Part shown: positions 299 through 29,905 of the stretch, piece after piece
Layout: the number at the start of each line of letters is the position of its first letter
How positions within the stretch are numbered: position 1 is the stretch's first letter
IMG/VR virus record: IMGVR_UViG_3300034374_000672
Span: 1 to 31,478 of that record
Reading direction: 5' to 3' (one strand)
Source: a virus
DNA: 31,478 nt
The notes under the pieces: generated by a model
What the model was told of the DNA's origin: nothing
What the model saw: the letters and a program-made list of their open reading frames with translations, nothing else
Databases searched by the model: none
Made by a program: the position numbers and the translations under genes

Positions 299-523
299 GT
301 GGCAAATACCACTTTCTCCGGTCCCGTGACTTCCGATAACGGTTTCATTGGCGACATTAAAGTTCCCACTTATACAGTAGCAGGCGCTCCTTCCGCTTCT
401 TCAGCGGGTGCAGGCACCGTGATCTATGTATCAAACGGCGCGGCTGGCGCAGCTATTTTGGCCTTCTCTGACGGCACCAACTGGAAGCGTTCCGACACTG
501 GCGGCACCATCGCAGCGTCATAA
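299..523 (+). CDS. Small conserved phage protein, possible virion/fibre-type module
   Basis: A 74-aa protein with a GTG start, preceded by a purine-rich AAGAGG ribosome-binding site at about 288. It reads as a short beta-rich module: 'VPTYTVAGAPSASSAGAG', then 'VIYVSNG', then 'LAFSDGTNWKRSDTG'. The 'YVSNG...FSDGTNWKR' ending resembles the C-terminal module of many phage tail-fibre and head-fibre proteins (family memory, not a search). No signal peptide, membrane segment or cysteine is present. Being the first gene after the capsid terminator, it may be a head decoration or fibre protein, but this is inference. The alternative is a tail-fibre accessory fragment. Confidence 0.55.
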   Translation: MANTTFSGPVTSDNGFIGDIKVPTYTVAGAPSASSAGAGTVIYVSNGAAGAAILAFSDGTNWKRSDTGGTIAAS

Positions 524-535
524 GGGGGTTGATCT

Positions 536-664
536 ATGAGCAATAGATTCCAAGCGCCCTCTGAAAAGGAACTGGCAGCCCGCGGTCTTGATAAAGACGG
601 CAAACCTATGAAAAAAGAGGAAAAGAAGGCTGCTCCTAAGAAAGCTGCGAAGGAGAAAAGCTAA
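536..664 (+). CDS. 42-aa lysine-rich small protein
   Basis: A 42-residue frame begins at ATG 536 after a clear AGGGGG ribosome-binding site (522-527) and ends in TAA overlapping the next ATG (TAATG at 662-666). The first half is ordinary and includes 'APSEKELAARGLDKDGKP'. The second half is almost purely Lys, Ala and Glu, with 11 lysines in 42 residues. The ribosome-binding site, the translational coupling and membership of a run of tiny basic genes support a real gene. Function is unknown; a disordered nucleic-acid or capsid-interior contact protein is conceivable. Confidence 0.6.
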   Translation: MSNRFQAPSEKELAARGLDKDGKPMKKEEKKAAPKKAAKEKS

Positions 665-939
665 TGGCAAATTCAGACGTAAAAGCCAAACGTCTGACCG
701 GTACGGGAGCGGCCACTGTTGGCCGCGCTCGACTACGTCAGATTCAGGCGCTTACTGGCGCTGGCGCGGGTCGTCTAACACTGACCGATGGAAATGGCGG
801 GGCAACAATTGTTGACCTAGATTTCTTGGCGTCAGATTCACACTCTGTGAACATCCCAGATGAAGGTGTTTTGTTTACTAGCGACATTTACGTCGCAACA
901 GCCACCAACATTACGGCGATGACGTTCTTTTACAGTTAG
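664..939 (+). CDS. Conserved 91-aa phage protein, beta-rich
   Basis: Its ATG overlaps the stop of the previous gene by one base, implying coupled translation. The protein starts 'MANSDVKAKRLTGTGAATVG', has a central 'GRLTLTDGNGGATIVDLDF' and ends 'NITAMTFFYS'. This pattern, with a short beta-sandwich-like core and a terminal 'VTxFYx', is familiar from small proteins next to marine phage capsid genes. No catalytic motif, cysteine or membrane segment is visible. A minor virion or capsid-decoration role is plausible from position only. Confidence 0.6.
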   Translation: MANSDVKAKRLTGTGAATVGRARLRQIQALTGAGAGRLTLTDGNGGATIVDLDFLASDSHSVNIPDEGVLFTSDIYVATATNITAMTFFYS

Positions 940-950
940 GTGCGGTCAAA

Positions 951-1235
951 ATGGCAACGACAAAAGATGTAAAACGTTTGCCATCGGGCCGGTTGAGTTA
1001 TCGGGGGGAGACCTTTGCAGGATATAACAAACCAAAACGTACTCCCGGTAAAGCAAAGAAAAGCGCTGTTCTCGCTAAGAAAGGCTCTGACGTTAAGCTC
1101 GTTCGCTTCGGCGATCCGAACATGGCAATTAAAAAAGATCAGCCGGGACGTCGAGAAAACTTTAGAGCGCGTCACTCGTGCGACACAGCAAAAGACAAGT
1201 TCAGTGCCCGTTACTGGTCTTGCAAAGCTTGGTGA
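951..1235 (+). CDS. Conserved 94-aa basic phage protein, C-terminal 'ARYWSCKAW'
   Basis: A 94-aa basic protein whose ATG lies 12 bases after the previous stop. The N-terminal part is Lys/Arg-rich. The second half reads 'VKLVRFGDPNMAIKKDQPGR', then 'FRARHSCDTAKDKFSARYWS' and ends in CKAW. The 'FGDPNM', 'RRxxFRARHxC' and 'ARYWSC(K)AW' blocks are strongly patterned and I recognise them from several marine phages as a conserved protein of unknown function. Two cysteines (in HSCD and SCKA), with histidine and several arginines, could bind metal or nucleic acid. A second frame overlaps it, but the strongly patterned protein here favours this one. Function not assigned. Confidence 0.65.
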   Translation: MATTKDVKRLPSGRLSYRGETFAGYNKPKRTPGKAKKSAVLAKKGSDVKLVRFGDPNMAIKKDQPGRRENFRARHSCDTAKDKFSARYWSCKAW

Positions 1236-1242
1236 GGAAGAA

Positions 1243-1425
1243 ATGCGCGTAGAAGACGTTTTAGCTAAATTAGAGAAACATGAGGCGGAGTGCAATCTTC
1301 GCTATCAGCGTGTCGAAGAAAAGCTAACTGAGCAGAAGAAGACTTTGGACGGATTAGACCTCAAGATTTGGGGTTTAGGTATTCTGATAATCGTAACGCC
1401 GATTATTCACAAATTCTTGGGGTGA
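1243..1425 (+). CDS. 60-aa coiled-coil plus C-terminal membrane segment protein (XhlA/holin-like candidate)
   Basis: The frame is open from 1015, but the start at ATG 1243 is preferred: it lies just after the upstream gene's stop (1233-1235) and has a GAGGAAG ribosome-binding site at 1234-1240. The 60 residues split into a charged helix with heptad spacing ('VLAKLEKHEAECNLRYQRVE', then 'EKLTEQKKTLDGLDLK') and one membrane segment, 'IWGLGILIIVTPIIHKFLG', at the extreme C-terminus. This is the layout of XhlA-type hemolysin/holin accessory proteins and of some phage membrane anchors. A lysis role is therefore possible but unproven; its position beside head genes is unusual for lysis. Confidence 0.6.
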   Translation: MRVEDVLAKLEKHEAECNLRYQRVEEKLTEQKKTLDGLDLKIWGLGILIIVTPIIHKFLG

Positions 1426-1428
1426 CAC

Positions 1429-1575
1429 ATGAAAAAAACTAAGAAACCTTACAAAAAGATTGCTGTGAAGAAGATGAATTGTGGCGGGGCCGTTAAGCAT
1501 ATGAGCTACGGCGGACCGGTCAAAAAGATGAAGTATGGCGGAAAAGCCGGTGGCTGCCGAGTGAGGAACGCATAA
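1429..1575 (+). CDS. 48-aa very basic protein with three GG motifs
   Basis: ATG 1429 follows the previous TGA by three bases, and its TAA overlaps the next ATG (TAATG). The 48 residues contain 13 lysines and two arginines. The N-terminal third is nearly all lysine; the rest is three short repeats ending in glycine pairs: CGGAV (18-22), YGGPV (27-31) and YGGKA (36-40). Two cysteines flank this block. Similar Gly-Gly-hydrophobic motifs recur in the large virion proteins downstream. The gene is too short for homology to be decisive, and I infer coding from tight coupling on both sides. Function is unknown; a DNA- or capsid-binding small virion protein is one possibility. Confidence 0.6.
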   Translation: MKKTKKPYKKIAVKKMNCGGAVKHMSYGGPVKKMKYGGKAGGCRVRNA

Positions 1576-1736
1576 TGGCTAAACAAGGGCTATACGCAAA
1601 CATTCACGCTAAACGGAAACGCATTGCTGCGGGTTCTGGTGAAAAAATGCGTAAAGCCGGGTCCAAAGGCGCTCCTACCGACAAAGCATTCAAGCAGTCT
1701 GCAAAGACTGCCAAGAAGAGTAGGAAAAAGGCATGA
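1575..1736 (+). CDS. 53-aa conserved basic phage protein
   Basis: The start overlaps the upstream stop (TAATG) and its own TGA overlaps the next start (ATGA at 1733). The protein begins 'MAKQGLYANIHAKRKRIAAG' and continues 'SGEKMRKAGSKGAPTDKAF', ending in Lys-rich 'KKSRKKA'. It contains 13 lysines and four arginines in 53 residues. I recognise the 'GLYANIHAKRKRIAAGSGE' block as highly conserved in marine phage genomes, where it is usually called hypothetical and sits between capsid and connector genes. The conservation suggests a structural or DNA-contact role in the head. No enzymatic motif is visible. Confidence 0.7.
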   Translation: MAKQGLYANIHAKRKRIAAGSGEKMRKAGSKGAPTDKAFKQSAKTAKKSRKKA

Positions 1737-2401
1737 CAACATCTGGCAGCAAAGACTTTGAGCTAGACGTCGCCGAGTACGTTGAGGAGGCGTTTGAGCG
1801 TTGTGGGCTTGAGGTCCGCACGGGCTACGACCTAAAGACGGCAAAGCGGTCTCTCAACCTATTGTTGGCAGATTGGGCTAACCGCGGGTTAAACCAATGG
1901 ACGATTAAACAGCGCAGCATCACGATGGTGCAGGGCGATGGCGAATACGACCTTGGGTCCGATGTTATTGACGTTTTGTCGGTTGTTTGCCGCCGAGACG
2001 GAACAGATTACTCGTTGGAACGTCTTAGCCGAGACGGTTTTTTGACTATTCCAAACAAAACAACGCAGGGACGGGCAAATCAGTTCTTCTTGGACCGACA
2101 ATTGACGCCAAATTTAAAACTTTGGCCTGTTCCGGACAATTCTACGGACGTTATTATCTATGATGCGCTAACGCGGATGGATGATGCGGATATTTATACG
2201 AACACAATGGACCTTCCCTTTCGGTTTTACCCCTGTTTAGCCGCGGGACTGGCCTATTACATTGCTTTGAAGAGGGCTCCGAACCGTGTTCAGCCTCTAA
2301 AAGCAGTGTATGAAGAAGAATTTGAACGCGCAGCGACAGAAGATCGTGATAGGTCGTCCTTCAATGTCGTTCCGAAGTATGAATACTACAGGGTTGGCTA
2401 A
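1733..2401 (+). CDS. Head-tail adaptor/connector protein (P22 gp4-like), first of two adaptor-like proteins
   Basis: A 222-aa protein. An N-terminal helical region (about 10-60, with 'AKRSLNLLLADWANRGLN') precedes a short beta block ('GDGEYDLGSDVIDVLS'), a 'LERLSRDGF' helix, a beta strand and turn 'LKLWPVPDNSTDVIIYDALT', and a C-terminal helical bundle rich in Arg and Glu. The 'LNLLLADWANRGLNxW' block is typical of the gp4/gp6-type adaptor family that docks under the portal ring. Position directly after the head genes agrees. It shares its block order with the protein at 2700-3350. Adaptor identity is family knowledge from memory; another ring protein of the neck is the alternative. Confidence 0.65.
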   Translation: MTTSGSKDFELDVAEYVEEAFERCGLEVRTGYDLKTAKRSLNLLLADWANRGLNQWTIKQRSITMVQGDGEYDLGSDVIDVLSVVCRRDGTDYSLERLSRDGFLTIPNKTTQGRANQFFLDRQLTPNLKLWPVPDNSTDVIIYDALTRMDDADIYTNTMDLPFRFYPCLAAGLAYYIALKRAPNRVQPLKAVYEEEFERAATEDRDRSSFNVVPKYEYYRVG

Positions 2402-2703
2402 TGGCGAAATTTGCGACTGGTAGAAATTCATGGGCAATATCAGACCGCTCCGGGCAGCGTTACCCATATAAGGTAATGAAGCGCGAGTGGAATGGCTTGC
2501 TTGTGGGACCAGACGAATATGAGCCGAAACACCCCCAATTAGGGCCCTTTCGCAAGGTTGTAGACCCAGAAGCTCTGCAAAATGCGCGTCCTGACCGAGT
2601 GGAGCCCCTTGATGTGTTTGTCGGGGTGCCTCTTGTTGAAAATCCTAACCTGAAACCGTGCCAAGGCTTCGGTCAGGTTGGCCAAGTGACGGTGACGACA
2701 TGA
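2401..2703 (+). CDS. Conserved 100-aa phage protein with a 'REWNGL...YEPKHPQL' core
   Basis: The start overlaps the stop of the adaptor (TAATG) and the end overlaps the next start (ATGA). The core is 'DRSGQRYPYKVMKREWNGLL', then 'VGPDEYEPKHPQLGPFR', then 'DPEALQNARPDR'. I recall relatives in marine phages in which the 'DRSG' and 'VGPDEYEP' positions carry paired cysteines forming a zinc knuckle. Here those positions are Ser/Gly and Asp/Glu and the only cysteine is near the C-terminus, so metal binding appears lost. The role is probably a neck or tail-assembly component by position. Function unknown. Confidence 0.6.
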   Translation: MAKFATGRNSWAISDRSGQRYPYKVMKREWNGLLVGPDEYEPKHPQLGPFRKVVDPEALQNARPDRVEPLDVFVGVPLVENPNLKPCQGFGQVGQVTVTT

Positions 2704-3350
2704 GCTTTACATATGGGCAACTAAAACAGGCCATTCAGGACTACACCGAGAACGATGAAACGTCCTTTGTGAACAATTTGCCGGTATTTATCCGTCAGGC
2801 AGAGGAGCGCATCCTCAAAAACGTCCAATTAAGCTTGTTTCGCAAGAACGTTAGCGGTGCAATGTCGTCGTCTAACCAGTATTTGGCTTGTCCAAGCGAC
2901 TTTTTGGCCCCTTTTTCGTTAAGTTTTACGGACGGGTCGTCAAATAAGGTGTTTTTGGACTTTAAAGACGCTGATTTTGTGCAATCCTTCAATCCAAACA
3001 ACGCTACAACCGGAAATCCGCGTTATTACGCGGTTTTTGACGTCGATAACTTCATTCTGGGCCCCACCCCCGACAGTTCCTACGCGGTTGAGCTGCATTA
3101 CTTCTACCGTCCGGCCAGTTTGACGGCTGGATCAGACAGCGGGACGACGTGGTTAAGCGAAAATGCCGAGATTGCCATGCTTTATGGCAGCTTGATGGAA
3201 GCCTACATCTATATGAAGGGTGAGGCCGATATGATGCAACAATACGAAAAACGGTTTGCAGAAGCGATTATGGGCATGAAGATGTTTGGAGAATCGAAAG
3301 AAGTGACCGACGAATACCGAACTGGAATGTTAATTAGGCCGAAACAATGA
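2700..3350 (+). CDS. Second head-tail adaptor-like protein (tail tubular A / SU10-adaptor type)
   Basis: ATG 2700 is chosen because it overlaps the upstream TGA in an ATGA junction; a longer in-frame start at 2658 would lie inside the previous gene. The 216-aa protein shows 'YGQLKQAIQDYTENDETSF', an 'IRQAEERIL' helix, 'NQYLACPSDFLAPFSLSF', 'NPRYYAVFDVDNFILGPTPD' and a C-terminal helical part. The order of an N-terminal helix, 'YL..PxDF', 'G-N-P-R-Y-Y', then a 'GPTP' strand and C-terminal helices is characteristic of tail tubular protein A and SU10-type adaptors. It probably forms the ring linking portal/adaptor to the tail hub encoded at 9759. Confidence 0.65.
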   Translation: MSFTYGQLKQAIQDYTENDETSFVNNLPVFIRQAEERILKNVQLSLFRKNVSGAMSSSNQYLACPSDFLAPFSLSFTDGSSNKVFLDFKDADFVQSFNPNNATTGNPRYYAVFDVDNFILGPTPDSSYAVELHYFYRPASLTAGSDSGTTWLSENAEIAMLYGSLMEAYIYMKGEADMMQQYEKRFAEAIMGMKMFGESKEVTDEYRTGMLIRPKQ

Positions 3351-3646
3351 GTTTTCCAGCATTAGACTTGAGCATAAACCCCGATTTCAAGGTGGAAGTA
3401 CACACCACTGACGGTCGTGGGTTTACCCCAGAGGAGGTCGCAGAGCGCTGCGCCCAAAAAGTGATTTCGATCAGCGACACGGCACCCTCTGCAATACAGG
3501 CGCAAGCAAAGGCCTTTCGTAAGCAGCTAGTTAAAGTTTTAGAATTTTACATGCGCGAAGCGATAAAAAGTGATAGAACAACTGTGTACAACGCGTTAGC
3601 CGACGCAGGCCACAAGGAGCTTGCTGAGTTGATAAGGAGACTGTGA
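3347..3646 (+). CDS. 99-aa conserved small phage protein
   Basis: The start overlaps the preceding stop (ATGA at 3347-3350). The protein begins 'MSFPALDLSINPDFKVEVHT', contains 'RGFTPEEVAERCAQKVISIS', and then forms two predicted amphipathic helices ending 'LAELIRRL'. The pattern is familiar from marine phage late clusters, where the protein is uncharacterised. Helical content and the position between adaptor and tail genes suggest an assembly chaperone or a small virion protein. No catalytic residues, cysteine pairs or membrane segment are visible. Function not assigned. Confidence 0.6.
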   Translation: MSFPALDLSINPDFKVEVHTTDGRGFTPEEVAERCAQKVISISDTAPSAIQAQAKAFRKQLVKVLEFYMREAIKSDRTTVYNALADAGHKELAELIRRL

Positions 3647-3647
3647 C

Positions 3648-4100
3648 ATGGCTTTCTCAGGAAACTACATGTGTACATCCTTCAAGCAAGAACTGCTTTA
3701 TGGTGTGCATGATTTTGATGCCTCTACGGGGGATACCTTTAACATCGCGCTGTATACCAGCTCGGCGACGCTAAATGCGGCGACGACTGCGTATTCGGCA
3801 ACGAACGAGACCAGCGGCACTGGCTATTCGGCGGGCGGTCAGGCTTTGACGAACGTCAATCCGACGACGTCTGGCACGACGGCTCTGACCGATTTTGCTG
3901 ACGAAACCTTCTCGACTGCAACCATTACTGCTCGCGGCGCGTTGATTTATAACACCACTCCAAATACCGCCTCAATCTCGGTGAGCAACCCGGCTGTTGT
4001 GGTATTGGATTTCGGTGGGGATAAAACCTCCACCGCCGGTGACTTCACCATTGTGTTTCCGACCGCAGACGCAAGTAATGCGATTATTCGGATAGCGTAA
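3648..4100 (+). CDS. 150-aa conserved structural-type protein
   Basis: ATG 3648 follows the previous stop by one base. The protein begins 'MAFSGNYMCTSFKQELLYGV', then 'DTFNIALYTSSATLNAATTA' and 'YSATNETSGTGYSAGGQAL', and becomes beta-rich with many Thr, Ser and Ala to the C-terminus ('FTIVFPTADASNAIIRIA'). I recognise the 'FKxELLxGxHxF....TFxIALYTSSATL' pattern as a frequent marine phage protein beside tail genes. The composition and beta-strand alternation are those of a virion surface or tail protein. It is coupled to the repeat protein downstream (TAATG). The specific role is unknown. Confidence 0.65.
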   Translation: MAFSGNYMCTSFKQELLYGVHDFDASTGDTFNIALYTSSATLNAATTAYSATNETSGTGYSAGGQALTNVNPTTSGTTALTDFADETFSTATITARGALIYNTTPNTASISVSNPAVVVLDFGGDKTSTAGDFTIVFPTADASNAIIRIA

Positions 4101-5059
4101 TGGCTGATGTTATCGTTCCAATCGGCGGCTGGGGCCGCTCTGGTTGGGGCGAAGGCCCGTGGTCCCAGAGCGGTTTTCCGTATCTCACGGGTTCTGTAGG
4201 CTCGGTCACGGTCGTTGCTGAAGCAAACGCACCGGTTACGGGTTTACAGGCAAACGGGAATGTTGGTAGCGTAACGGTAGTTGCGGAAGCCAATGTAGCC
4301 GTAACGGGAGTTTCTGCGACAGGCCAGATTGGGTCTGTTAGCATCATCGGCGAGGCCAACGTAGACGTTACTGGAGTATCCGGTACAGGCCAAGTCGGAA
4401 CCGTCAGCGTAACGGCTGACGCCAACGTCTACCCAACCGGACTGTCCGCTACCGGCAGCGTAGGCTCCGTAACGGTCACCGCAGATGCAAACGTCAATGT
4501 TACGGGAGTAGCCGGTACAGGCGCAGTTGGCTCCGCAAGCGTAGAAGCCGATGCTGATGTTCCGGTTACAGGCTTGGAAGCGACGGGTTCTGTTGGATCA
4601 GTCACGGTCGTAGCAAAAGCAAATGTCTATCCGATAGGCATCGCGGTTACCGCTCAAGTCGGCCAAGCTTCGGTAGATGGGGAAGCGAACGTTCCTGTTA
4701 CGGGCCTTGCGGCCACAGGTAACGTTGGCTCTGTTTCCGTATCTGCTTCCCAGAATATTAACGTTGGCGGCGTTGCCGCAAATGGAAGAGTTGGTAGTGT
4801 TAGCATTAATGCTCATGCTACTGTGAATGTAACAGGCGTAAGTGCGACAACCGTTGTAGGTGATGTACTTGTATATGGCCGGATTGTTCCAAACCAAAAT
4901 CCGGGGTATAGTAGCATGGCACCAAATCAAAATCCGGGGTATAGTAGTATGGCACCAAATCAAAATCCGGGGTATAGCAGTACGACACCAAGTCAAAGCC
5001 CAACGTGGTCAGAGAAGTCGCCAGCACAGAATGCCAATTGGACGCGAATAGCGGCGTAA
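4100..5059 (+). CDS. Tandem-repeat tail protein: Trp motif, ten 22-aa repeats, 11-aa C-terminal repeats
   Basis: A 319-aa protein in three parts. Residues 9-23 form a Gly/Trp motif with Trp at 11, 16 and 21. Residues 32-251 are exactly ten 22-residue repeats with consensus 'xVGSVTVxAxANVxVTGVxA' plus two residues, followed by a partial eleventh. Residues 264-318 are 11-residue repeats, three nearly identical 'PNQNPGYSSMA' units and two diverged ones with Trp. The alternating Val/Thr repeats predict a regular beta-solenoid or stacked beta fibre. The 'PxQxPxW' ending is familiar from marine phage tail proteins. It precedes the large fibre gene, so a fibre stalk or fibre-adaptor role is inferred. 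Confidence 0.65.
   Translation: MADVIVPIGGWGRSGWGEGPWSQSGFPYLTGSVGSVTVVAEANAPVTGLQANGNVGSVTVVAEANVAVTGVSATGQIGSVSIIGEANVDVTGVSGTGQVGTVSVTADANVYPTGLSATGSVGSVTVTADANVNVTGVAGTGAVGSASVEADADVPVTGLEATGSVGSVTVVAKANVYPIGIAVTAQVGQASVDGEANVPVTGLAATGNVGSVSVSASQNINVGGVAANGRVGSVSINAHATVNVTGVSATTVVGDVLVYGRIVPNQNPGYSSMAPNQNPGYSSMAPNQNPGYSSTTPSQSPTWSEKSPAQNANWTRIAA
4193..4852 (+). repeat. Ten in-frame 66-bp tandem repeats (22 aa each)
   Basis: Codons 32-251 divide into ten 22-codon units with no insertion or deletion. The protein consensus is well kept (GSV, AN, TG positions) while the DNA is much diverged, so the array is old and held by selection on the protein rather than recently amplified. Confidence 0.85.
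4889..5020 (+). repeat. 33-bp tandem repeats (11 aa), three near-identical copies plus one diverged
   Basis: Units begin at 4889, 4922, 4955 and 4988. The first three differ by only a few bases; the fourth is diverged, and a fifth degenerate unit follows to the stop. In contrast to the 66-bp array, the near-identity of the first three DNA copies suggests recent amplification or replication slippage, in frame. Confidence 0.85.
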
Positions 5060-5071
5060 AGGATCAAAAAG

Positions 5072-8000
5072 ATGCCAAGCACCTATACAGTTAACCTCGG
5101 TATCGAGAAACCAGCCACCGGTGAACAGTCGGGTACTTGGGGTGATACCACAAACGTCAACTTTGACATCATTGACCAAGCTATCAACGGTGTCTTGTCT
5201 TTAACCCTTGCATCGGCAGGCACTTCTGGGTCGCCTAATACGCTGACTATCGACAACGGTGCTACCTCTGATGGTCGCAACAAGTGGATCGAATTTGTCG
5301 ACGGTGGCGATCTCGGCGCTAACGCATATGTCCAGCTCGGTCCAAATGACGCTGAAAAGATTGTTTTCTTCCGAAACAGCCTGTCCGGCAGCCGCTCTGT
5401 TTTTGTTTTCCAAGGCACATATAACGCGGCAAACGACTTTGAAATCCCTGCCGGTTACGACGTTGTTCTGAAATTTGATGGTGGTGGCGCGAGTGCCACG
5501 GTCACTGACGTCTTCCAAAAACTCCGCGTTACTGAACTGTACACTCCCACGCTTGGCGCAGGCACAGCGGACATTAACGATGGTACGGTCGAAGCGGTCA
5601 TTGGCGGTACTACGCCGAAGGCAGGCACATTCACTACGCTTACGGCTAACACGAACCTGACGGTCAATGCCTCGACCACTGTCGACGGCATCATTGATGA
5701 CGACACGATGGCCACGGCTTCTGCAACGAAGCTTTCGACATCCGAGTCGATCAAAGCGTATGTGGACAGTCAAGTTGGTACGGTTGATACGCTTTCTGAG
5801 ATTTTGGCCAACGGAAATACTTCTGGCGCGAACAACCTGATTATCAACAACGGTCAGGCGATCACGACTAACACAGTCAACGAAACCACTGCGGGCAGCG
5901 GTGTGACGGTTGACGGCGTGTTGCTCAAGGACGATGGGATTAACGCAACGAACCTTGAGATTACCAACATCAAAGCTAACGACGGCACTGCGGCGGGTTC
6001 GATTGCGAACAGCACGGGTGCTGTGACGATCACGTCGTTTATCTCGAACTCTGTCGACATCGGCGGCGGTGCGATTGACGGCACCACGATTGGCGGGACG
6101 ACCCCTAACAGTGGGGCGTTTACGACGCTTTCTGCCACGGGCGATCTCACAGTAGACACCAACACGCTCTACGTGGACAGCACGAATAATCGGGTTGGAG
6201 TCGGGACGAGTTCTCCAGCAGGGAAGGCCCACGTCGCCCTATCAACATCTTTTTCTTGGGGTGGTAATTGGACCTCAGGGACGGCGGTATTTGGTGGCGC
6301 AACTGATAGTTCCGGTGCGCTCGGTATTTCATATAACGATACCTCCGGAGTGGTTATTGGCGCAGTTGCGCCGGGTGTTGCGTGGAAAAATATTTCTATA
6401 TATGCCAATGACTTTATCGTCAGTTCTGGCGCTTCCAACGAAAGTGTGCGCATCACCAGCGCAGGCAATGTCGGCATTGGGACGACTTCGACTACAGGTG
6501 CTTCGCTAAGAATTTCCAAAAACGTCACTGGGTCTGCATTTTCGTATAGCTCTTACATTGACGGTCAAATTCAATCAGATGTAACAAGCGCATACGCTTC
6601 GGTTCAATCGTCTCCATCAACTCAAGCGGCAGCGTTCACTCTTGGGCAACTAAGACACTTCTACGCAAACATGGGAACAATGGGTGCTGGCTCAACAGTC
6701 ACCAGTCAGTTTGGTTTTGCTGCGGAAAACACCTTAACAGGCGCTACCACCAACTACGGTTTCTACAGCAACATTGCCGCTGGCACAGGTCGCTTCAACT
6801 TTTATGCTGCTGGTACTGCTGATAACGCCTTTGCTGGTAGCGTTGGAATTGGTACTTCGTCACCTCTTGCAAAATTTAATGTTGATGGCGGCGGTGTCGT
6901 AGTAAGCAGCGATGGCGATTATTTTGCTGGGGGTGCTTACTACAATGCGGGTTGGAAAAACTCTGTAGCTTCTCAGGGTGGCTGGGTACTCAGGAATGAT
7001 GGCGGTGTACTAGTTATACAAACTGCACCGCCTAATGGTGCTGCTGGTTCGGCTCTTTCTATGGATGAACGTATCCGTATCGACAGCAGCGGTAACGTTG
7101 GAATTGGGACGACTTCGCCTAGTACATATGGAAAACTTGCGGTATGGGGTGGAAAAGCCGGAACAAGTACATCATCGGCGGCATTTTCAACGCCCGGTTT
7201 GGCGCAAGGTGAAGACGCTGACCTTGCACTTTACAGCACCTTTGAGAATACTGGGGACGATGGGCCTAGACGAACCGCAGATATTATCGCCGGATTTAAC
7301 GGCAGTGCTTGGGGTACTGAGTATCTCTCGTTTAATGTCGGCACCAATGGGACAGGTAACGACTCAAGAGTTGTTACATCTGAAAAAGTGCGCATCACCA
7401 GCAACGGCGATGTCGGTATTGGTACGGATTCGCCGACGTACCGTCTCCAAACGGCAGGACCAAGTCCCGGAATCGCTATTCAGAACACTAGCTCCGGTGG
7501 CGGCTGGATTGATTTCTTAGACAGCGGCGGAACTGTTCGCGGGAACATCTACTACGATAACACAAGCGGCTACATGGTGTTCGGAACGTCCCCGTCCGGT
7601 ACTAAGATAGAACGTATGCGCATCGACAGCAGCGGTAACGTCAACATTGGGACGACTCCGACTACAGGTGTTTCGCTAAGAATTTCCAAAAACGTCACTG
7701 GGTCTGCATTTTCGTATGGCTCTTACATTGACGGTCAAATTCAATCAGATGTAACAAGCGCATACGCTTCGGTTCAATCGTCTCCATCAACTCAAGCGAC
7801 AGCGTTCACTCTTGGGAACCTAAGACACTTCTACGCAAACATGGGAACAATTGGTGCTGGCTCAACAGTCACCAATCAGTTTGGTTTTGTTGCGGAAAGC
7901 AGCTTAACAGGCGCTACCACCAACTACGGTTTCTACAGCGCCATTGCCGCTGGCACAGGTCGCTACAACTTTTTTGCTGCTGGTAATGCTGATAACGCCT

Positions 8001-9016
8001 TTGCTGGGAATGTGGGGATTGGTACAAGCAGTCCTGCTGTAAAACTACACATATATAGTTCTGGTAGTTCATACACTAATCCGGATAATAACGATCTACC
8101 TACGATCTATCTAAACAATATTAATAATGCTTCTACTACTGCACACTCTATTCTTCTACTAAGAACTGCTGGGTCTGCGGGGGGTGATCCTTTCATTTCT
8201 TATGATATTGCTGGTGAATATGGTTGGTCTGCGGGAGTAGATAATAGTGATGGCAACAAGTACAAAATTGCATCTTCATGGAGTTCTTTAGCTAGTGATA
8301 CAAGATTAACAATAGACAGCAGCGGTAACGTCGGTATTGGTGTTACATCTCCAACCTTCAAACTTGATGTACGTGGTACAACGGCACCCGTAGCAAACTT
8401 CTATCAGCTAACGGCTGCAACTAACACTGACATCTATGTTAATAACGTAGGGTCTGCCAATAACTTCCTGATTAGCCGACGCAGTAACGGCGAAAGCTGG
8501 CTGTATAACAGTGGTGCTGATGCGCTCGTATTTACAACAGATGCAATTCAACGTCTGATTATCGAAGGCGGCGGTGTCTTGCGTCCCGGCGGTGACAACA
8601 CGCAAACGCTTGGATCAGCCTCGTACCGCTGGTCGGTCGTTTACGCCGCAACCGGCACTATCAACACGTCCGACGAACGAGAAAAGCAGCAGGTTGCCAA
8701 TCTTGATGATGCCGAGCGGCGCGTCGCTGTCGCGCTCAAAGGGCTCGTTAAAAAGTTCAAATACAATGATGCGGTTGCGCTCAAAGGCGACGATGCACGC
8801 ATCCATGTCGGCGTGATTGCACAGGAAGTTATCGCGGCATTTGCGGCAGAAGGTCTTGACGCCACACGCTATGCGCTGCTGTGCCACGATACGTGGGAAG
8901 CGGAGCCAGAAGAAACAGACGATGAAGGCAACGTAATTAAACTGGGCCTCGAAGCTGGTGAGCGTTACGGAATCCGGTACGATGAACTCCTCGCATTTAT
9001 GATTGCGGCGCTGTGA
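5072..9016 (+). CDS. Large tail fibre/spike with C-terminal intramolecular chaperone (peptidase S74)
   Basis: A 1314-aa protein. The N-terminus ('YTVNLGIEKPATGEQSGTWG') is the attachment-type domain common in marine phage fibres. The middle is Gly/Ser/Thr/Asn-rich with eight 'N/S-VGIGTxSP' modules between residues about 370 and 1095. Residues 468-588 are duplicated at 858-978. The C-terminal 115 residues are an S74 chaperone: 'TSDEREK' gives the S-D-x-R-x-K autocleavage signature with Ser1200 and Lys1205. In this family the chaperone trimerises the fibre and then cuts itself off just before the Ser, leaving about 1199 residues. It probably carries host recognition. The next gene overlaps by one base (TGATG). 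Confidence 0.88.
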   Translation: MPSTYTVNLGIEKPATGEQSGTWGDTTNVNFDIIDQAINGVLSLTLASAGTSGSPNTLTIDNGATSDGRNKWIEFVDGGDLGANAYVQLGPNDAEKIVFFRNSLSGSRSVFVFQGTYNAANDFEIPAGYDVVLKFDGGGASATVTDVFQKLRVTELYTPTLGAGTADINDGTVEAVIGGTTPKAGTFTTLTANTNLTVNASTTVDGIIDDDTMATASATKLSTSESIKAYVDSQVGTVDTLSEILANGNTSGANNLIINNGQAITTNTVNETTAGSGVTVDGVLLKDDGINATNLEITNIKANDGTAAGSIANSTGAVTITSFISNSVDIGGGAIDGTTIGGTTPNSGAFTTLSATGDLTVDTNTLYVDSTNNRVGVGTSSPAGKAHVALSTSFSWGGNWTSGTAVFGGATDSSGALGISYNDTSGVVIGAVAPGVAWKNISIYANDFIVSSGASNESVRITSAGNVGIGTTSTTGASLRISKNVTGSAFSYSSYIDGQIQSDVTSAYASVQSSPSTQAAAFTLGQLRHFYANMGTMGAGSTVTSQFGFAAENTLTGATTNYGFYSNIAAGTGRFNFYAAGTADNAFAGSVGIGTSSPLAKFNVDGGGVVVSSDGDYFAGGAYYNAGWKNSVASQGGWVLRNDGGVLVIQTAPPNGAAGSALSMDERIRIDSSGNVGIGTTSPSTYGKLAVWGGKAGTSTSSAAFSTPGLAQGEDADLALYSTFENTGDDGPRRTADIIAGFNGSAWGTEYLSFNVGTNGTGNDSRVVTSEKVRITSNGDVGIGTDSPTYRLQTAGPSPGIAIQNTSSGGGWIDFLDSGGTVRGNIYYDNTSGYMVFGTSPSGTKIERMRIDSSGNVNIGTTPTTGVSLRISKNVTGSAFSYGSYIDGQIQSDVTSAYASVQSSPSTQATAFTLGNLRHFYANMGTIGAGSTVTNQFGFVAESSLTGATTNYGFYSAIAAGTGRYNFFAAGNADNAFAGNVGIGTSSPAVKLHIYSSGSSYTNPDNNDLPTIYLNNINNASTTAHSILLLRTAGSAGGDPFISYDIAGEYGWSAGVDNSDGNKYKIASSWSSLASDTRLTIDSSGNVGIGVTSPTFKLDVRGTTAPVANFYQLTAATNTDIYVNNVGSANNFLISRRSNGESWLYNSGADALVFTTDAIQRLIIEGGGVLRPGGDNTQTLGSASYRWSVVYAATGTINTSDEREKQQVANLDDAERRVAVALKGLVKKFKYNDAVALKGDDARIHVGVIAQEVIAAFAAEGLDATRYALLCHDTWEAEPEETDDEGNVIKLGLEAGERYGIRYDELLAFMIAAL
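6474..6836 (+). repeat. Tail-fibre domain duplication, copy A
   Basis: A 363-bp segment (residues 468-588) is repeated at 7644-8006 with an exact offset of 1170 bp (390 codons). There are 16 base differences and no gaps. Similarity falls abruptly at both ends into the generic 'VGIGT' modules. All differences change the protein. Confidence 0.95.
7644..8006 (+). repeat. Tail-fibre domain duplication, copy B
   Basis: Second copy of the 363-bp segment (residues 858-978), about 95.6% identical to copy A (16 of 363 bases differ). The 14 altered codons give S/P, A/V, S/G, A/T, Q/N, M/I, S/N, A/V, N/S, T/S, N/A, F/Y, Y/F and T/N exchanges. Confidence 0.95.
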
Positions 9017-9168
9017 TGACCGAGCAAGAACTTCTCATCGCCTGTTACCGCAGCGGCCAGATCAATGAGCGGCAATGGCAGGAACATATGCAGGAAGACC
9101 CAAAGCTGCGTGATGCGTGGCTCGACGAAATCGACCCGGACAATTCGGGTTGGAACCCTATAGGATAA
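9016..9168 (+). CDS. 50-aa protein coupled to the tail fibre, possible fibre-assembly partner
   Basis: The ATG overlaps the fibre's stop (TGATG at 9014-9018). The 50-residue protein begins 'MTEQELLIACYRSGQINERQ' and continues 'WQEHMQEDPKLRDAWLDEID', ending 'GWNPIG'. It is acidic and helical, with no membrane segment. I have seen comparable short 'LIxxYRSGQ...W..HL..D..LR..W' proteins beside marine phage fibres, but without known function. Tight coupling to the fibre suggests a small chaperone or dosage-matched partner; this is inference from position. Confidence 0.55.
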   Translation: MTEQELLIACYRSGQINERQWQEHMQEDPKLRDAWLDEIDPDNSGWNPIG

Positions 9169-9180
9169 GGAGCAAAACAA

Positions 9181-9504
9181 ATGGCAATCACTTGGTCTAT
9201 CGTACAACTTGATTACGCTGTGTCTCTCGACGGCAAATCTGACGTGGTCAACAACTCTCATTGGCAGTGCATCGACAAAGATGCCTCCGGTAATCAGGCA
9301 CGGGTCTACGGCTCTGTGGGTATCCCCACGGATGACCTGTCGAACTTTACGCCCTATGCCGATATCACCGAGGCGCAGGCACTTCAGTGGACGAAGGACG
9401 CCCTTGGTGCTGACGAGGTTGCCTCTATTGAGGCGAATGTAGCCGCACAGCTACAGCTAATTCAAAATCCTACGGAGGGTAGTGGCACCCCGTGGGCAGC
9501 TTAA
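9181..9504 (+). CDS. Conserved 107-aa phage protein ('MAITWSIVQLDY' family)
   Basis: A good ribosome-binding site (AAGGAG at 9167-9172) precedes the ATG. The protein starts 'MAITWSIVQLDYAVSLDGKS', has 'VVNNSHWQCIDKDASGNQ' and 'GSVGIPTDDLSNFTPYADIT', and ends with a helix 'VASIEANVAAQLQLIQNP'. This family, with a beta-rich N-terminal part, 'YGSVG(I/V)P', 'FTPYADxTE' and a C-terminal helix that often starts with 'LG', is widespread in marine phages and uncharacterised. It lies between fibre and tail hub genes, so a tail accessory role is likely. No enzymatic residues are evident. Confidence 0.7.
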   Translation: MAITWSIVQLDYAVSLDGKSDVVNNSHWQCIDKDASGNQARVYGSVGIPTDDLSNFTPYADITEAQALQWTKDALGADEVASIEANVAAQLQLIQNPTEGSGTPWAA

Positions 9505-9529
9505 CCGCCACATAACATAGGAGCGAAAA

Positions 9530-9754
9530 ATGGGAAAAAATGAAAAGACCCCCATTATGATCGACGACGTTGAGCACCAGTACGAGGACATGAGCGCGGA
9601 GCAGCAGATGATGGTCAATCACATCGCTGACTTGGAGAGGAAACTCGCTTCGGCGCAGTTCAACCTTGACCAGCTCCGCGTCGGCAAGGATGCCTTTGTT
9701 GGGATGCTCAAACAGTCGCTAGCCGTTGAAGAACCCCCAGAATCAGTGAATTGA
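9530..9754 (+). CDS. 74-aa coiled-coil small protein (DUF6447-like)
   Basis: An ATAGGAGCG ribosome-binding site (9519-9527) sits just upstream. The N-terminus 'IMIDDVEHQYEDMSAEQQMM' is followed by a heptad-patterned helix 'VNHIADLERKLASAQFNLDQ' and 'LRVGKDAFVGMLKQSL'. The arrangement of 'I.IDG(V)EY.....S.E.+.....I...+.+I..L...L...+....A+...L...L' matches what I remember of the DUF6447 family, small proteins frequent in marine viruses. Function is unknown; dimerisation by the coiled coil is likely. Confidence 0.65.
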   Translation: MGKNEKTPIMIDDVEHQYEDMSAEQQMMVNHIADLERKLASAQFNLDQLRVGKDAFVGMLKQSLAVEEPPESVN

Positions 9755-9758
9755 TGAA

Positions 9759-11684
9759 ATGCCATTCACCAAGTTACAGTTCCGACCCGGAGTAAACCGA
9801 GAGACGACTTCGTATACCAACGAAGGAGGCTGGTTTGACTGTGACAAAGTAAGGTTTCGGTTTGGCACCCCTGAAAAGATTGGGGGCTGGGAAAAAACGT
9901 CCGGCAGGAGCTTCTTGGGCACCTGTCGGGCGCTTCATCCTTTTGTGGCGTTGGACGGCACTAGCTATCTTGGTGTCGGCACCCATCTTAAATACTACAT
10001 TTATGAAGGCGGCGCTTACGCCGACATCACGCCCATCCGCGAAACGACGGCTGCGGGCGATGTCACGTTTGCCGCGACTAACGGCTCCTCGACGCTGACG
10101 GTAACCGACACGAACCACGGCGCACAAGAGAACGATTTTGTGACGTTTTCTGGCGCGGTCAGTCTTGGCGGTAACATCACGGCGGACGTGCTGAACCAAG
10201 AGTATCAGATCACCAACATCTTAAATAGCAACTCCTATGAGATTGTCGCCCGCGAAGTAAATTCGGTTGTAAACATAACAATAAATGGCCAATATACGCC
10301 GGTCCCCGTTCTAGCCGACGCGTCTGACACCGGCAACGGCGGCGCGGCAGTAGTTGGCACTTATCAGGTGCTAACTGGTCTAGATACGACGGTTGCCGGT
10401 ACAGGCTGGGGCGCAGGTACTTGGTCCCGCGGTGCGTGGGGTTCGGGCGCTTCTTTGACCGCTATCGGCGATACGTTGCGTATTTGGAGCCACGATAACT
10501 TTGGCGAAGACCTGATCATCAACATACGCAACGGCGGTATTTACTACTGGGATAAATCGACTAGCTCGGCACCTTTTGCACGGGCCGTGGCGCTTTCAGA
10601 CTTGGGTGGTGCAGACGCGGCGACTCCGACGATTGCCAAGCAAGTCCTGATTTCGGACCGCGACCGGCACGTTATTGTGTTTGGCTGCGATCCGCAAAAC
10701 GATATTGGCACTCAAGACCCGTTGTTGATTCGGTTTTCCGACCAAGAAAACCCGCTGGTTTGGTCGTCTACGGCTACAAATACGGCTGGTGACCTACGGA
10801 TTGGTAATGGGTCTGAAATTATCACGGCCCTCGAAACACGCCAGCAAATTCTGGTGTTTACGGACGTTTCGCTTCACGCGATGCAGTATTTAGGCCCGCC
10901 GTTTACCTTTGGTATCCAGTCCATCTCGGAAAACATCACGATTGCCAGCCCTCTGGCGGCCATTGCTGTCGACGATTTTGTGTTCTGGATGGGCGACGAA
11001 GAGTTCTACCTGTACACAGGTCAAGTTCAGAAGCTGCCTTGCTCTGTGCGGGCCTATGTGTTCAACGACTTCAACGTGTCGCAGAAAGAAAAAGTTACTT
11101 GCGGCGTAAACTCTTCCTTTTCCGAAATTTGGTGGTTCTACCCGTCTGCCGATTCAGACAATATTGACCGCTACGTCGTTTATAACTACAAAGAACAGGC
11201 GTGGTACTACGGATCAATGGCCCGTTCAGTCTGGCTGGATCGTGGTATTAACCAGTATCCGATAGCGGCAAGTTTGGACGGCTATCTGTACTTCCACGAG
11301 TTTGGTCAAGACGACGGCAGCGTAAACCCGCCGGTTGCGGTCAGTTCCTACATTGAAAGCAGCCAGATGTCGCTTGGTAATGGCGACCAATTTGTCTTCT
11401 TGAGTAGGCTTATCCCTGACGTCACGTTTGATGGTTCAAATGCGCCGTCACCGCTTGTTTCTATGACTTTGGAAACCAGGAACTTCCCCGGCGCGGCCTA
11501 TACGTCTTCGACGGCAAGCACGGTTACTCGAACGGCTACTGTTCCGGTAGAGCAGTTTACCGACGAGGTGCGGATACGTCTGCGCGGCAGGTCGTTTGCG
11601 TTTAAGATTTCCTCTGCCGAGACTGGCGTAGGCTGGCGTTTGGGCACTCCGCGTGTCGAACTAAGACCGGATGGTCGCAGATGA
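9759..11684 (+). CDS. Tail hub / packaged-DNA stabilisation protein (P22 gp10-like nozzle)
   Basis: A 641-aa protein. The N-terminus 'MPFTKLQFRPGVNRETTSYT' and 'FDCDKVRFRFGTPEKIGGW' is characteristic of the tail-hub/nozzle proteins of P22-like and marine podoviruses. There follow an inserted beta domain at about 95-180 ('GDVTFAATNGSSTLTVTDTN'), a Trp motif (Trp 217, 222, 227), and a beta-propeller-like body with 'HVIVFGCDP', 'YVVYNYKEQAWYYGSMAR' and a basic end 'GVGWRLGTPRVELRPDGR'. In relatives this protein plugs the portal channel and carries the spikes. A TGATGAAATG stretch gives two possible starts; 9759 gives the conserved 'MPFTKL' end. The next gene overlaps in ATGA. Confidence 0.72.
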   Translation: MPFTKLQFRPGVNRETTSYTNEGGWFDCDKVRFRFGTPEKIGGWEKTSGRSFLGTCRALHPFVALDGTSYLGVGTHLKYYIYEGGAYADITPIRETTAAGDVTFAATNGSSTLTVTDTNHGAQENDFVTFSGAVSLGGNITADVLNQEYQITNILNSNSYEIVAREVNSVVNITINGQYTPVPVLADASDTGNGGAAVVGTYQVLTGLDTTVAGTGWGAGTWSRGAWGSGASLTAIGDTLRIWSHDNFGEDLIINIRNGGIYYWDKSTSSAPFARAVALSDLGGADAATPTIAKQVLISDRDRHVIVFGCDPQNDIGTQDPLLIRFSDQENPLVWSSTATNTAGDLRIGNGSEIITALETRQQILVFTDVSLHAMQYLGPPFTFGIQSISENITIASPLAAIAVDDFVFWMGDEEFYLYTGQVQKLPCSVRAYVFNDFNVSQKEKVTCGVNSSFSEIWWFYPSADSDNIDRYVVYNYKEQAWYYGSMARSVWLDRGINQYPIAASLDGYLYFHEFGQDDGSVNPPVAVSSYIESSQMSLGNGDQFVFLSRLIPDVTFDGSNAPSPLVSMTLETRNFPGAAYTSSTASTVTRTATVPVEQFTDEVRIRLRGRSFAFKISSAETGVGWRLGTPRVELRPDGRR

Positions 11685-12775
11685 GCCGGGGCCTTGTACT
11701 TCCATACTTCCCGGGGGCTCCCGCGGAATACGATCAGCGGTATCAAGCCGAGATCATGCGGGCCTTTTCTGTGTTTTTGCAGCAGGTCAACAACCCGGGC
11801 CCTTGGCGGGCTACAGAGCTGACATTGACGCAATCCACGGGAAACGTGGACCGCGGCCAGATGGCTTGGAACCTCAACGAAGAGACGGTCGACATTACGA
11901 TGGGCGACGGAGTTGTCCAGCAGGTGGGTTTTGAGACCTACATGCGGGTCAAAAACGACACCGGCAGCCAAATCAACAATGGCGAAGTCGTAGGTTTTGT
12001 TGGGGTAAACGGCGAAATCAAAGTTGCGCCCTTTATTGCCAACAACACGGCAAACGAGCTGTATTTTGTGGGTGTAGCCACGCACGACATGCCGGATCAA
12101 GATATTGGCCCGATCACTGTGTATGGAAAAGTCCGCGGCATAGACACCACGGGCCCCGGGGCAGAGACGTGGAGTGTGGGCGATATTTTGTACGCATCCC
12201 CGACAACAGCGGGTTTGCTTACTAATGTGCGCCCAACGGCACCCAATGGTGTGATTGTTATCGCTGCGGTGCTTACCGTAGACGCCACAAACGGCGAAAT
12301 CATGGTGCGGCCTACCGTTCCAATTGGTTTGGACTACGGAAGTTTTGTCGCTACAGTCGATCAAACGCTAGGGGCTATCAACACGGCAGCCGCAATTGCC
12401 CTGACAAGTACGCTTGTCACCAACGGTGTGACCTTGAGCAGCGGCTCGCGGTTAAACGTCGTGGAAGCGGGTTATTACCAGATCGACGCGACGATCCAGT
12501 TAACCTCGACAAGCGCCAGTGCTAAAAACATATTTTTCTGGCTTCGAAAGAACGGCACCGATGTTGGGGATTCCACCCGAGCCGTGACAATAGACGCTAA
12601 CAACGGATATTTGCCCATATCGTTGAACTACACGATTTCTCTCGCCGCCACCGATTACGTTGAGCTGTATTGGGCGGCTAACGATACAAACGTCTTGTTG
12701 GACGCATTAGCGGCATCAGCCTTTGCGCCGTCGGCACCCTCGGTGCTGTTAAATGTATCCCAGCTCCAGTTGTGA
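11681..12775 (+). CDS. Tail-associated protein with C-terminal jelly-roll-like domain
   Basis: A 364-aa protein. Residues about 1-60 begin 'MSRGLVLPYFPGAPAEYDQR' with a helix 'IMRAFSVFLQQV'. Residues about 65-215 form a conserved beta domain ('GFETYMRVKNDTGSQINNGE', 'ELYFVGVATHDMPD', 'VGDILYASPTTAGLLTNV') that I recognise from many marine phage tail proteins. Residues about 220-364 resemble a C1q/TNF-type jelly roll ('GVTLSSGSRLNVVEAGYYQI', 'IFFWLRKNGTDVG', 'YVELYWAAND'), a fold often used for receptor binding. The ATGA overlap ties it to the tail hub. It is likely a secondary fibre or tail tip; the jelly-roll call is inference. Confidence 0.6.
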   Translation: MSRGLVLPYFPGAPAEYDQRYQAEIMRAFSVFLQQVNNPGPWRATELTLTQSTGNVDRGQMAWNLNEETVDITMGDGVVQQVGFETYMRVKNDTGSQINNGEVVGFVGVNGEIKVAPFIANNTANELYFVGVATHDMPDQDIGPITVYGKVRGIDTTGPGAETWSVGDILYASPTTAGLLTNVRPTAPNGVIVIAAVLTVDATNGEIMVRPTVPIGLDYGSFVATVDQTLGAINTAAAIALTSTLVTNGVTLSSGSRLNVVEAGYYQIDATIQLTSTSASAKNIFFWLRKNGTDVGDSTRAVTIDANNGYLPISLNYTISLAATDYVELYWAANDTNVLLDALAASAFAPSAPSVLLNVSQLQL

Positions 12776-28553: not shown

Positions 28554-29135
28554 ATGAGTGATGACTTGACGAAATTGATGGAGCAAGACTTCGAGGAGAC
28601 CCTAGCTTCGTCTGTTGAAAAAGTAGACCAACAGGGGCTCACTTCGGTAGCCGCTTTGGCCCGCCAAATCCGAGACAAAGAAGAAACTATCTCACGCCTT
28701 GAGGAAACCCTCAAGGAAGAGAAGAAAACTCTTCTGAAGCTCACGGATGAAGAAATGCCAGCCATGCTTGCTGAAATCGGCATCTCTTCGTTTAGCCTAG
28801 ATGACGGTTCAACCGTTGAGGTTAAACAAACCTACGGGGCTTCAATCCTCGTAGACAATCGTCCGGCTGCTTACGAGTGGCTGCGTGAACACGGGTACGA
28901 TGACATTATCAAAAATACTGTCCTCTGCCAGTTTGGACGCGGAGAAGACGATTTAGCAAGTTCGTTCGCTGCATTCGCGCAGCAACAAGGCTATGTTCCC
29001 GAGCAAAAGACAGAAATCCATCCGCAGACGCTACGCGCCTTTATCAAAGAACGCGTGGAAGAAGGGGAAGCATTTCCTATGGAGCTTTTCGGAGCATGGG
29101 TTGGCCAACGTGCAGTTATCAAGAGGAGTAAATAA
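28554..29135 (+). CDS. 193-aa conserved phage early protein with coiled coil
   Basis: An ACAGGAGAA ribosome-binding site precedes ATG 28554. Residues about 35-68 form a charged coiled coil ('ARQIRDKEETISRLEETLKE'). Then come 'DEEMPAMLAEIGISSFSLDD', 'GSTVEVKQTYGASILVDNR', 'AYEWLREHGYDDIIKNTVL' and 'PFQ'-less C-terminal blocks 'IHPQTLRAFIKERVEEG' and 'PMELFGAWVGQRAVIKR'. The order of coiled coil, 'GI.SF.L.DGS.V.V', 'A..WLR..G..D+IKN' and 'P.ELFG.+.G..A.IK' is one I recognise as a frequent but unnamed phage protein next to recombination/SSB-like genes. A DNA-replication accessory role is inferred from operon position. Confidence 0.65.
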   Translation: MSDDLTKLMEQDFEETLASSVEKVDQQGLTSVAALARQIRDKEETISRLEETLKEEKKTLLKLTDEEMPAMLAEIGISSFSLDDGSTVEVKQTYGASILVDNRPAAYEWLREHGYDDIIKNTVLCQFGRGEDDLASSFAAFAQQQGYVPEQKTEIHPQTLRAFIKERVEEGEAFPMELFGAWVGQRAVIKRSK

Positions 29136-29137
29136 TC

Positions 29138-29905
29138 ATGACTAAAGCAGTCGCAACTAAGAAGAACTCAGAAATTATGGAGTTCGATCCATCAATGTTT
29201 GAAGCCGATGCAGGCCGTGGCATGGAGAACATGGGGCAAGAAGACTTTGCGCTTCCTTTCCTCAAAGTTCTGTCAGGTAATGACCCTGTATTGGATGAAA
29301 ACGAGAATGCTCGTAAGGGCGACATTTATAACACCGTCACTGGTGCGATCTACAAAGGTAAGGACGGCATTCGTGTCATTCCGTGTGCTTACCAGCGTCG
29401 GTTTATCCGGTGGGCTCCGCGTGGCAGCGGAACCGGTGCGCCCGTGGCAATTTACGAGCCCGGTGATAACCGACCCGAAACTCAACGCTCTACTGAAGAC
29501 AACAAAGACTATGTTGTCGACGGCAACGGTGAGTACATCGAGGAAACTCACCAACACTTTGTCATTCTGTTGAACCCAGAAGGCGGTGCGGAGACAGCCC
29601 TCATTGCTATGAAATCTACGCAGCTCAAGAAGTCGCGTAAGTGGAACAGCATGATGGCGTCGCGCCAAATGCAGGGGAAGAACGGGCCGTTCACGCCGCC
29701 TCGGTTCTCCCACATTTACCACCTCAAAACGGCTCAAGAGGAAAACTCAAAAGGCTCGTGGCACGGTTGGGAAATGTCTGTAGATGGCCCGATTACCGAT
29801 GCAAGCTTGTACGGAAGAGCTAAAGGGTTCGCGGACAGCATCACGGCTGGCGACGTTGTTGTCAAACATACGGAAGATGGAGTGGGCGGCGATACACCGT
29901 TCTAA
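29138..29905 (+). CDS. 255-aa putative ssDNA-binding-type protein (SSB-like acidic tip)
   Basis: GAGGAG at 29123-29128, at the end of the upstream gene, serves as ribosome-binding site. The N-terminus is disordered ('MTKAVATKKNSEIMEFDPSM'). A conserved core follows: 'FALPFLKVLSGNDPVLDEN', 'GDIYNTVTGAIYKGKDGIRV', 'IPCAYQRRFIRWAPRG', 'IEETHQHFVILLNPEGG', 'STQLKKSRKWNSMM' and 'SHIYHLKT', consistent with a beta-barrel body. The protein ends EDGVGGDTPF. This acidic D-x-P-F tip matches the C-terminal tail by which bacterial SSB recruits partners (DDDIPF in E. coli). With helicase and primase adjacent, an SSB role is a reasonable inference, not proven. Confidence 0.6.
   Translation: MTKAVATKKNSEIMEFDPSMFEADAGRGMENMGQEDFALPFLKVLSGNDPVLDENENARKGDIYNTVTGAIYKGKDGIRVIPCAYQRRFIRWAPRGSGTGAPVAIYEPGDNRPETQRSTEDNKDYVVDGNGEYIEETHQHFVILLNPEGGAETALIAMKSTQLKKSRKWNSMMASRQMQGKNGPFTPPRFSHIYHLKTAQEENSKGSWHGWEMSVDGPITDASLYGRAKGFADSITAGDVVVKHTEDGVGGDTPF

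Follow-up and report, generated by a model that had tools for sequence, protein, structure and literature searches.

How do two copies of one segment, lying in a single gene, come to differ in many amino acids without a single silent difference? The question is raised by a tail-fibre gene in the window, by which we mean the whole stretch of viral DNA analysed here (31,478 nucleotides; IMG/VR record IMGVR_UViG_3300034374_000672). The fibre ORF of this bacterial virus (5072-9016) holds a 120-residue cassette twice in the same frame, the two copies, A and B, being 1170 bp apart. They show 16 base differences, which fall in 14 codons, and each of the 14 codon changes is a replacement (codons 469-588). 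An earlier note, made from the sequence alone, had listed these 16 positions and 14 replacement codons, and every one proved exact. Its starting point needs a small correction: base 6474, counted there as the first of the block, is a seventeenth difference that together with 6473 makes a further replacement (GGC/AAC), and the block proper runs from 6475 to 6837. The features to which we refer are these.

5072-9016, plus strand: tail-fibre gene, 1314 aa, made of cassettes in a chain with an S74 chaperone at its end (ORF list, Pfam Peptidase_S74, PHROG tail fibre families)
5072-6061, plus strand: N-terminal 330 residues, kept in related phages with wholly different distal cassettes (sequence comparison)
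6470-6493, plus strand: loop motif VGIGTTST at the 5′ end of copy A; holds the left edge of the duplicated segment
6476-6835, plus strand: cassette copy A, codons 469-588 (direct comparison of the copies)
6842-6865, plus strand: loop motif VGIGTSSP after copy A, just upstream of which the duplicated segment has its right edge
6848-7090, plus strand: cassette M2, 95.5% DNA identity to the fibres of another phage (L223-L225; sequence comparison)
7097-7120, plus strand: loop motif between cassettes M2 and M3
7412-7435, plus strand: loop motif between cassettes M3 and M4
7640-7663, plus strand: loop motif VNIGTTPT at the 5′ end of copy B
7646-8005, plus strand: cassette copy B, codons 859-978; 95.6% DNA and 88.3% protein identity to A, 0 silent differences
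8012-8035, plus strand: loop motif VGIGTSSP after copy B
8330-8353, plus strand: loop motif between M6 and M7, in a region that matches Bdellovibrio MAT fibre structures
8669-8854, plus strand: Peptidase_S74 intramolecular chaperone, containing SDEREK (Pfam match, translation)

The gene is built as a chain in which eight V-G-I-G-T-x-x-P loop motifs separate the cassettes. Its C-terminal end matches PF13884 over residues 1200-1261 (40.4 bits, cut-off 22), and the SDEREK of the translated S74 region fits SDxxxK, the S74 catalytic motif (PMC10769870). Residues 1-330 are 61-84% identical in five related phages (L122, L303, L304, L305, L312) and three others (L307-L309) match the fibre over residues 1-155 only; none of the eight carries the cassettes. 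Cassette exchange is evident both here, where the relatives keep the N-terminus only, and in M2, which is common to another phage with different flanking fibre. The segment held in common with that phage (L223-L225) ends near loop motifs and differs in its interior by five replacement codons and one silent codon; on sequence comparison, it reads as a recent cassette transfer. For the 120-residue cassette there is neither a Pfam family nor a sequence match in the PDB. A model of its monomer (pLDDT 82, pTM 0.59) shows few strands, and its best fold matches, the MAT fibres, extend over 31-45 columns only, with E values of 1.9 or worse that are not significant.

Repeats also occur in the gene preceding the fibre (window 4100-5059), where VGSVTV-AEANV-VTGL repeats of about 22 residues precede a tandem repeat of 33 bases (4889-4997, APNQNPGYSSM). 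At the far end of the window, an open-ended ORF with an archaeo-eukaryotic primase domain (AEP-TOTE; 29962-31476) adjoins genes that match cyanophage Pam3 gp33- and gp34-like families (28554-29905).

The absence of silent change between A and B is difficult to attribute to chance. By counting, the block offers 95.3 silent and 264.7 replacement sites, of which 0 and 16, respectively, have changed. The earlier expectation that roughly a quarter of random changes should be silent was right (26-31%), and under neutrality the probability of seeing none is 0.003-0.015, the span reflecting transition bias and whether 14 codons or 16 bases are counted. The codon-based comparison of dN and dS that had been proposed for the two copies gives an omega whose 95% lower bound is 1.75-2.2, i.e., above 1, a value unadjusted for the choice of pair. 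The exchanges themselves (S/P, A/V, S/G, A/T, Q/N, M/I, S/N, A/V, N/S, T/S, N/A, F/Y, Y/F, and T/N) arise from changes at codon positions 1, 2, and 3 in the numbers 5, 9, and 2. Twelve of the 14 are conservative by BLOSUM62, where about half would be expected (P 0.009-0.013 under neutral replacement), which indicates that structural constraint is still acting; if constraint persists, a complete lack of silent change becomes less likely still, and its probability given 12 conservative changes falls to 0.0014-0.0020. The 14 sites show no significant clustering along the cassette (the largest gap is ordinary, P = 0.32), nor are they significantly enriched at positions that vary in the family (P = 0.13). 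Since the nearest outgroup has 65-68% protein identity, the changes carry no confident assignment to one branch or the other.

We considered whether silent sites might be under a constraint of their own and rejected this possibility: no second open frame runs over either copy, and codons in the cassette family vary freely, the commonest codon having a mean share of 0.48 with no column above 0.9 except those for M and W. The silent differences that the earlier note saw immediately outside the block do exist (codons 465-466, 589, 591-592, and 595-597), but they lie in the GNVGIGT loop motifs of neighbouring cassettes. Because these flanks belong to the general loop repeat of the gene and stand outside the recent duplication, they form a weak and unmatched control.

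A better measure comes from the cassette family, for which 479 copies (325 distinct) were gathered from 524 sequences, the loci and the window together; members often stand in tandem, two to six per gene. Among 19 distinct family pairs with pN of 0.03-0.09, pS is 0.098-0.531 in the 18 others and 0 in A/B, and A/B is the extreme among approximately 30 shared or duplicated cassette pairs across fibre genes. Neither these pairs nor the in-gene repeats of 219 loci include another pair of cassette length that lacks silent change; the sole other zero-silent rows in the survey are repeats with a four-residue period. Replacement-only divergence is thus not a general property of the cassettes, since most recent exchanges show ordinary ratios. 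The second most extreme pair is M2 and its counterpart in the other phage, with six replacement base changes to one silent, which alone is not significant. The survey also makes clear that the unadjusted P of 0.003-0.015 is optimistic, because a single pair was picked for looking striking. When A/B is taken as one of about 30 pairs, the rejection of strict neutrality (omega = 1) is marginal; the rejection of the constraint usual in the family stays strong.

Other members of the family deserve mention in their own right. The fibre ORF of L281 has undergone an in-gene cassette duplication (base offsets 1083 and 1392) with 15.7 replacement and 4.3 silent changes, so that divergence per replacement site about equals divergence per silent site. 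The cassette also occurs in the tail fibre of cyanophage S-TIM5 (L381) and in genomes of Mucilaginibacter, Nitrosomonas, Sphingomonas, and Emticicia as well as a Taylorbacteria MAG (L382-L386), where its carriers are perhaps prophages or surface proteins.

Both copies are present in a second strain. Contig IMGVR_UViG_3300034418_000656 (L003), from the same phage species, covers window positions 476-12387 at 99.8% identity, and although it differs from the window at 23 other sites in 11.9 kb, it contains A and B without a single difference in either. This makes a one-off assembly artefact unlikely, and we have rejected that explanation; strictly speaking, an error common to both short-read assemblies is still conceivable. 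The coding differences between the strains, 12 silent and 9 replacement codons (the fibre gene contributes one of each), contrast with the 0:14 between the copies (Fisher P = 0.0006), the strain side of this comparison representing whole virion genes. Separately, five of the nine replacements fall within 280 bases (10003-10281) of an ORF for a virion structural protein (9759-11684, phrog_3287), possibly a second variable spot.

In the history that we consider probable, recombination within or close to the loop motifs recently duplicated the cassette, and selection then favoured mild differences in amino acids. This reading builds on a duplicated segment that has its edges at loop motifs, differs by replacements only, stands apart from its family, and persists in two strains. 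The left edge falls within a loop motif and the right edge just before one, suggesting recombination at or beside the motif. A 120-residue cassette of an S74-type fibre, predicted to be trimeric, would have been duplicated inside its gene, most likely through recombination in or beside the repeated GNVGIGT loop between cassettes, and the copies would then have diverged under selection, mild replacements, drawn from the residues that the family uses, outpacing silent changes. S74-type tail fibres usually contact host surfaces, and for this reason we infer selection for altered binding or shape. What was selected may be how the fibre binds host surface structures that vary, the copies perhaps turning into a pair of units on the same fibre that differ slightly in binding or shape. 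The earlier note's view of the module as receptor-facing is plausible in the context of an S74 fibre, and so is its suggestion that a fibre segment can be gained or lost by recombination; A and B both occur in the one further contig of this species. Its proposal of a recent duplication followed by selection for protein change is favoured by the rejection of neutrality and by the extreme position of A/B among family pairs; its alternative of a targeted mutator is not supported.

Relaxed constraint, in which one or both copies drift neutrally and the lack of silent changes among 14-16 is luck, is unlikely in our estimation but keeps some weight. The exchanges are mild, and a neutral probability of 0.003-0.015 is not negligible given how the case was selected and that about 30 pairs were examined. 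However, at all 14 sites both residues are found in the cassette family, which, with the excess of conservative exchanges, argues that constraint persists, and under constraint the chance of zero silent change drops as described above. The contrast between strains and copies also speaks against drift.

Selection might instead have acted on alleles rather than on duplicates, if unequal crossing-over between strains brought together cassette alleles that had already diverged. The sequence fits this order of events equally well, and the neighbouring M2 likewise shows mainly replacement differences between phages. Among the viral contigs searched, however, there is no single-copy relative with either allele, and we regard this version as improbable. 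We give still less credence to gene conversion that erases silent differences between the copies while selection retains the replacements. Copies in the same gene, 1170 bp apart and 95.6% identical, could exchange in this way, and the result would be exactly zero silent changes and several replacements, but with 14 sites spread over 110 codons this would require very short tracts or unceasing selection against conversion. Between the two strains no silent change is common to both copies, although few are expected and the test is weak.

That a targeted mutator, such as a diversity-generating retroelement, wrote the replacements into the cassettes from a template is hardly credible. With a mutator of the retroelement type one expects a reverse transcriptase, a template, and change that is still going on. 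The search that the earlier note proposed recovered neither a reverse transcriptase nor a third cassette copy in the 31-kb window, and five related contigs likewise contain no reverse transcriptase; related complete genomes are approximately 50-65 kb, and perhaps half of this genome is therefore unseen. Retroelements acting on phage fibres would likewise give replacement-rich change at codon positions 1 and 2, where most of the A/B changes fall (5 and 9 of 16), and adenine is present in one copy at 11 of the 16 sites. This excess is not significant (binomial approximately 0.1), and 5 of the 16 sites have no adenine in either copy. The target of such an element is a variable region at the C-terminal end of its gene, whereas the changes here extend across 330 bp in the middle of the gene (codons 469-588 and 859-978 of 1314), and the cassettes are stable between strains that differ elsewhere.

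Several known systems resemble parts of this fibre. Its C-terminal S74 domain, identified by Pfam and sequence match and possessing SDxxxK, is like those of solved S74 chaperone chains, but the 120-residue cassette lies outside their structures. The Bdellovibrio MAT fibres Bd2133, Bd1334, and Bd3182 (PMC10769870) have the same repeated R-x-x-I-x-x-x-G-N-V-G-I-G-T-x-x-P loop between beta-helix cassettes, and the phage loop matches each of these chains several times. The capping loops published for the MAT fibres (PMC10769870) appear to correspond to this motif; in Bd3182, judging from the alignment, the stretch matched by the phage loop appears to be the capping loop R656-H669. The MAT proteins differ in being cell-surface fibres of a predator; ours is a phage virion fibre with different cassette contents. 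A signal peptide followed by a conserved N-terminal domain of approximately 130 residues characterizes the MAT type, and the N-terminus of ours is instead common to related phage fibres. Domain shuffling in phage receptor-binding proteins (Smug et al. 2023, PMC10684548) is similar in its recent exchange of fibre segments between phages and in combining a conserved N-terminus with a variable distal part; what differs here is a duplication within the gene whose divergence, at the nucleotide level, is by replacement only. Literature searches for a tail-fibre duplication under positive selection gave nothing matching.

We conclude that A/B most likely records selection for protein change, a genuine signal and an unusual one in statistical terms, reached through ordinary cassette shuffling rather than a new mutational mechanism. 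One might go further and propose that newly duplicated or transferred cassettes undergo a burst of adaptive amino-acid tuning (the replacement-to-silent codon ratio is 14:0 in A/B and 5:1 in M2), the cassettes forming an evolvable array of near-identical, selected binding units; we hold this generalization to be doubtful. The replacement-only divergence of A and B is confirmed and well defined, and selection after duplication is its most likely cause, a process of a known kind for which this gene offers a useful model case. Positive selection immediately after a within-gene duplication is rarely so clear in a phage fibre, as silent changes usually accumulate. In a cassette that is widespread, and has neither a Pfam family nor a solved structure, the pair points to 14 residues as candidates for setting host binding; if the divergence is confirmed with reads, the rate at which a fibre is retuned after gaining a cassette would become measurable.
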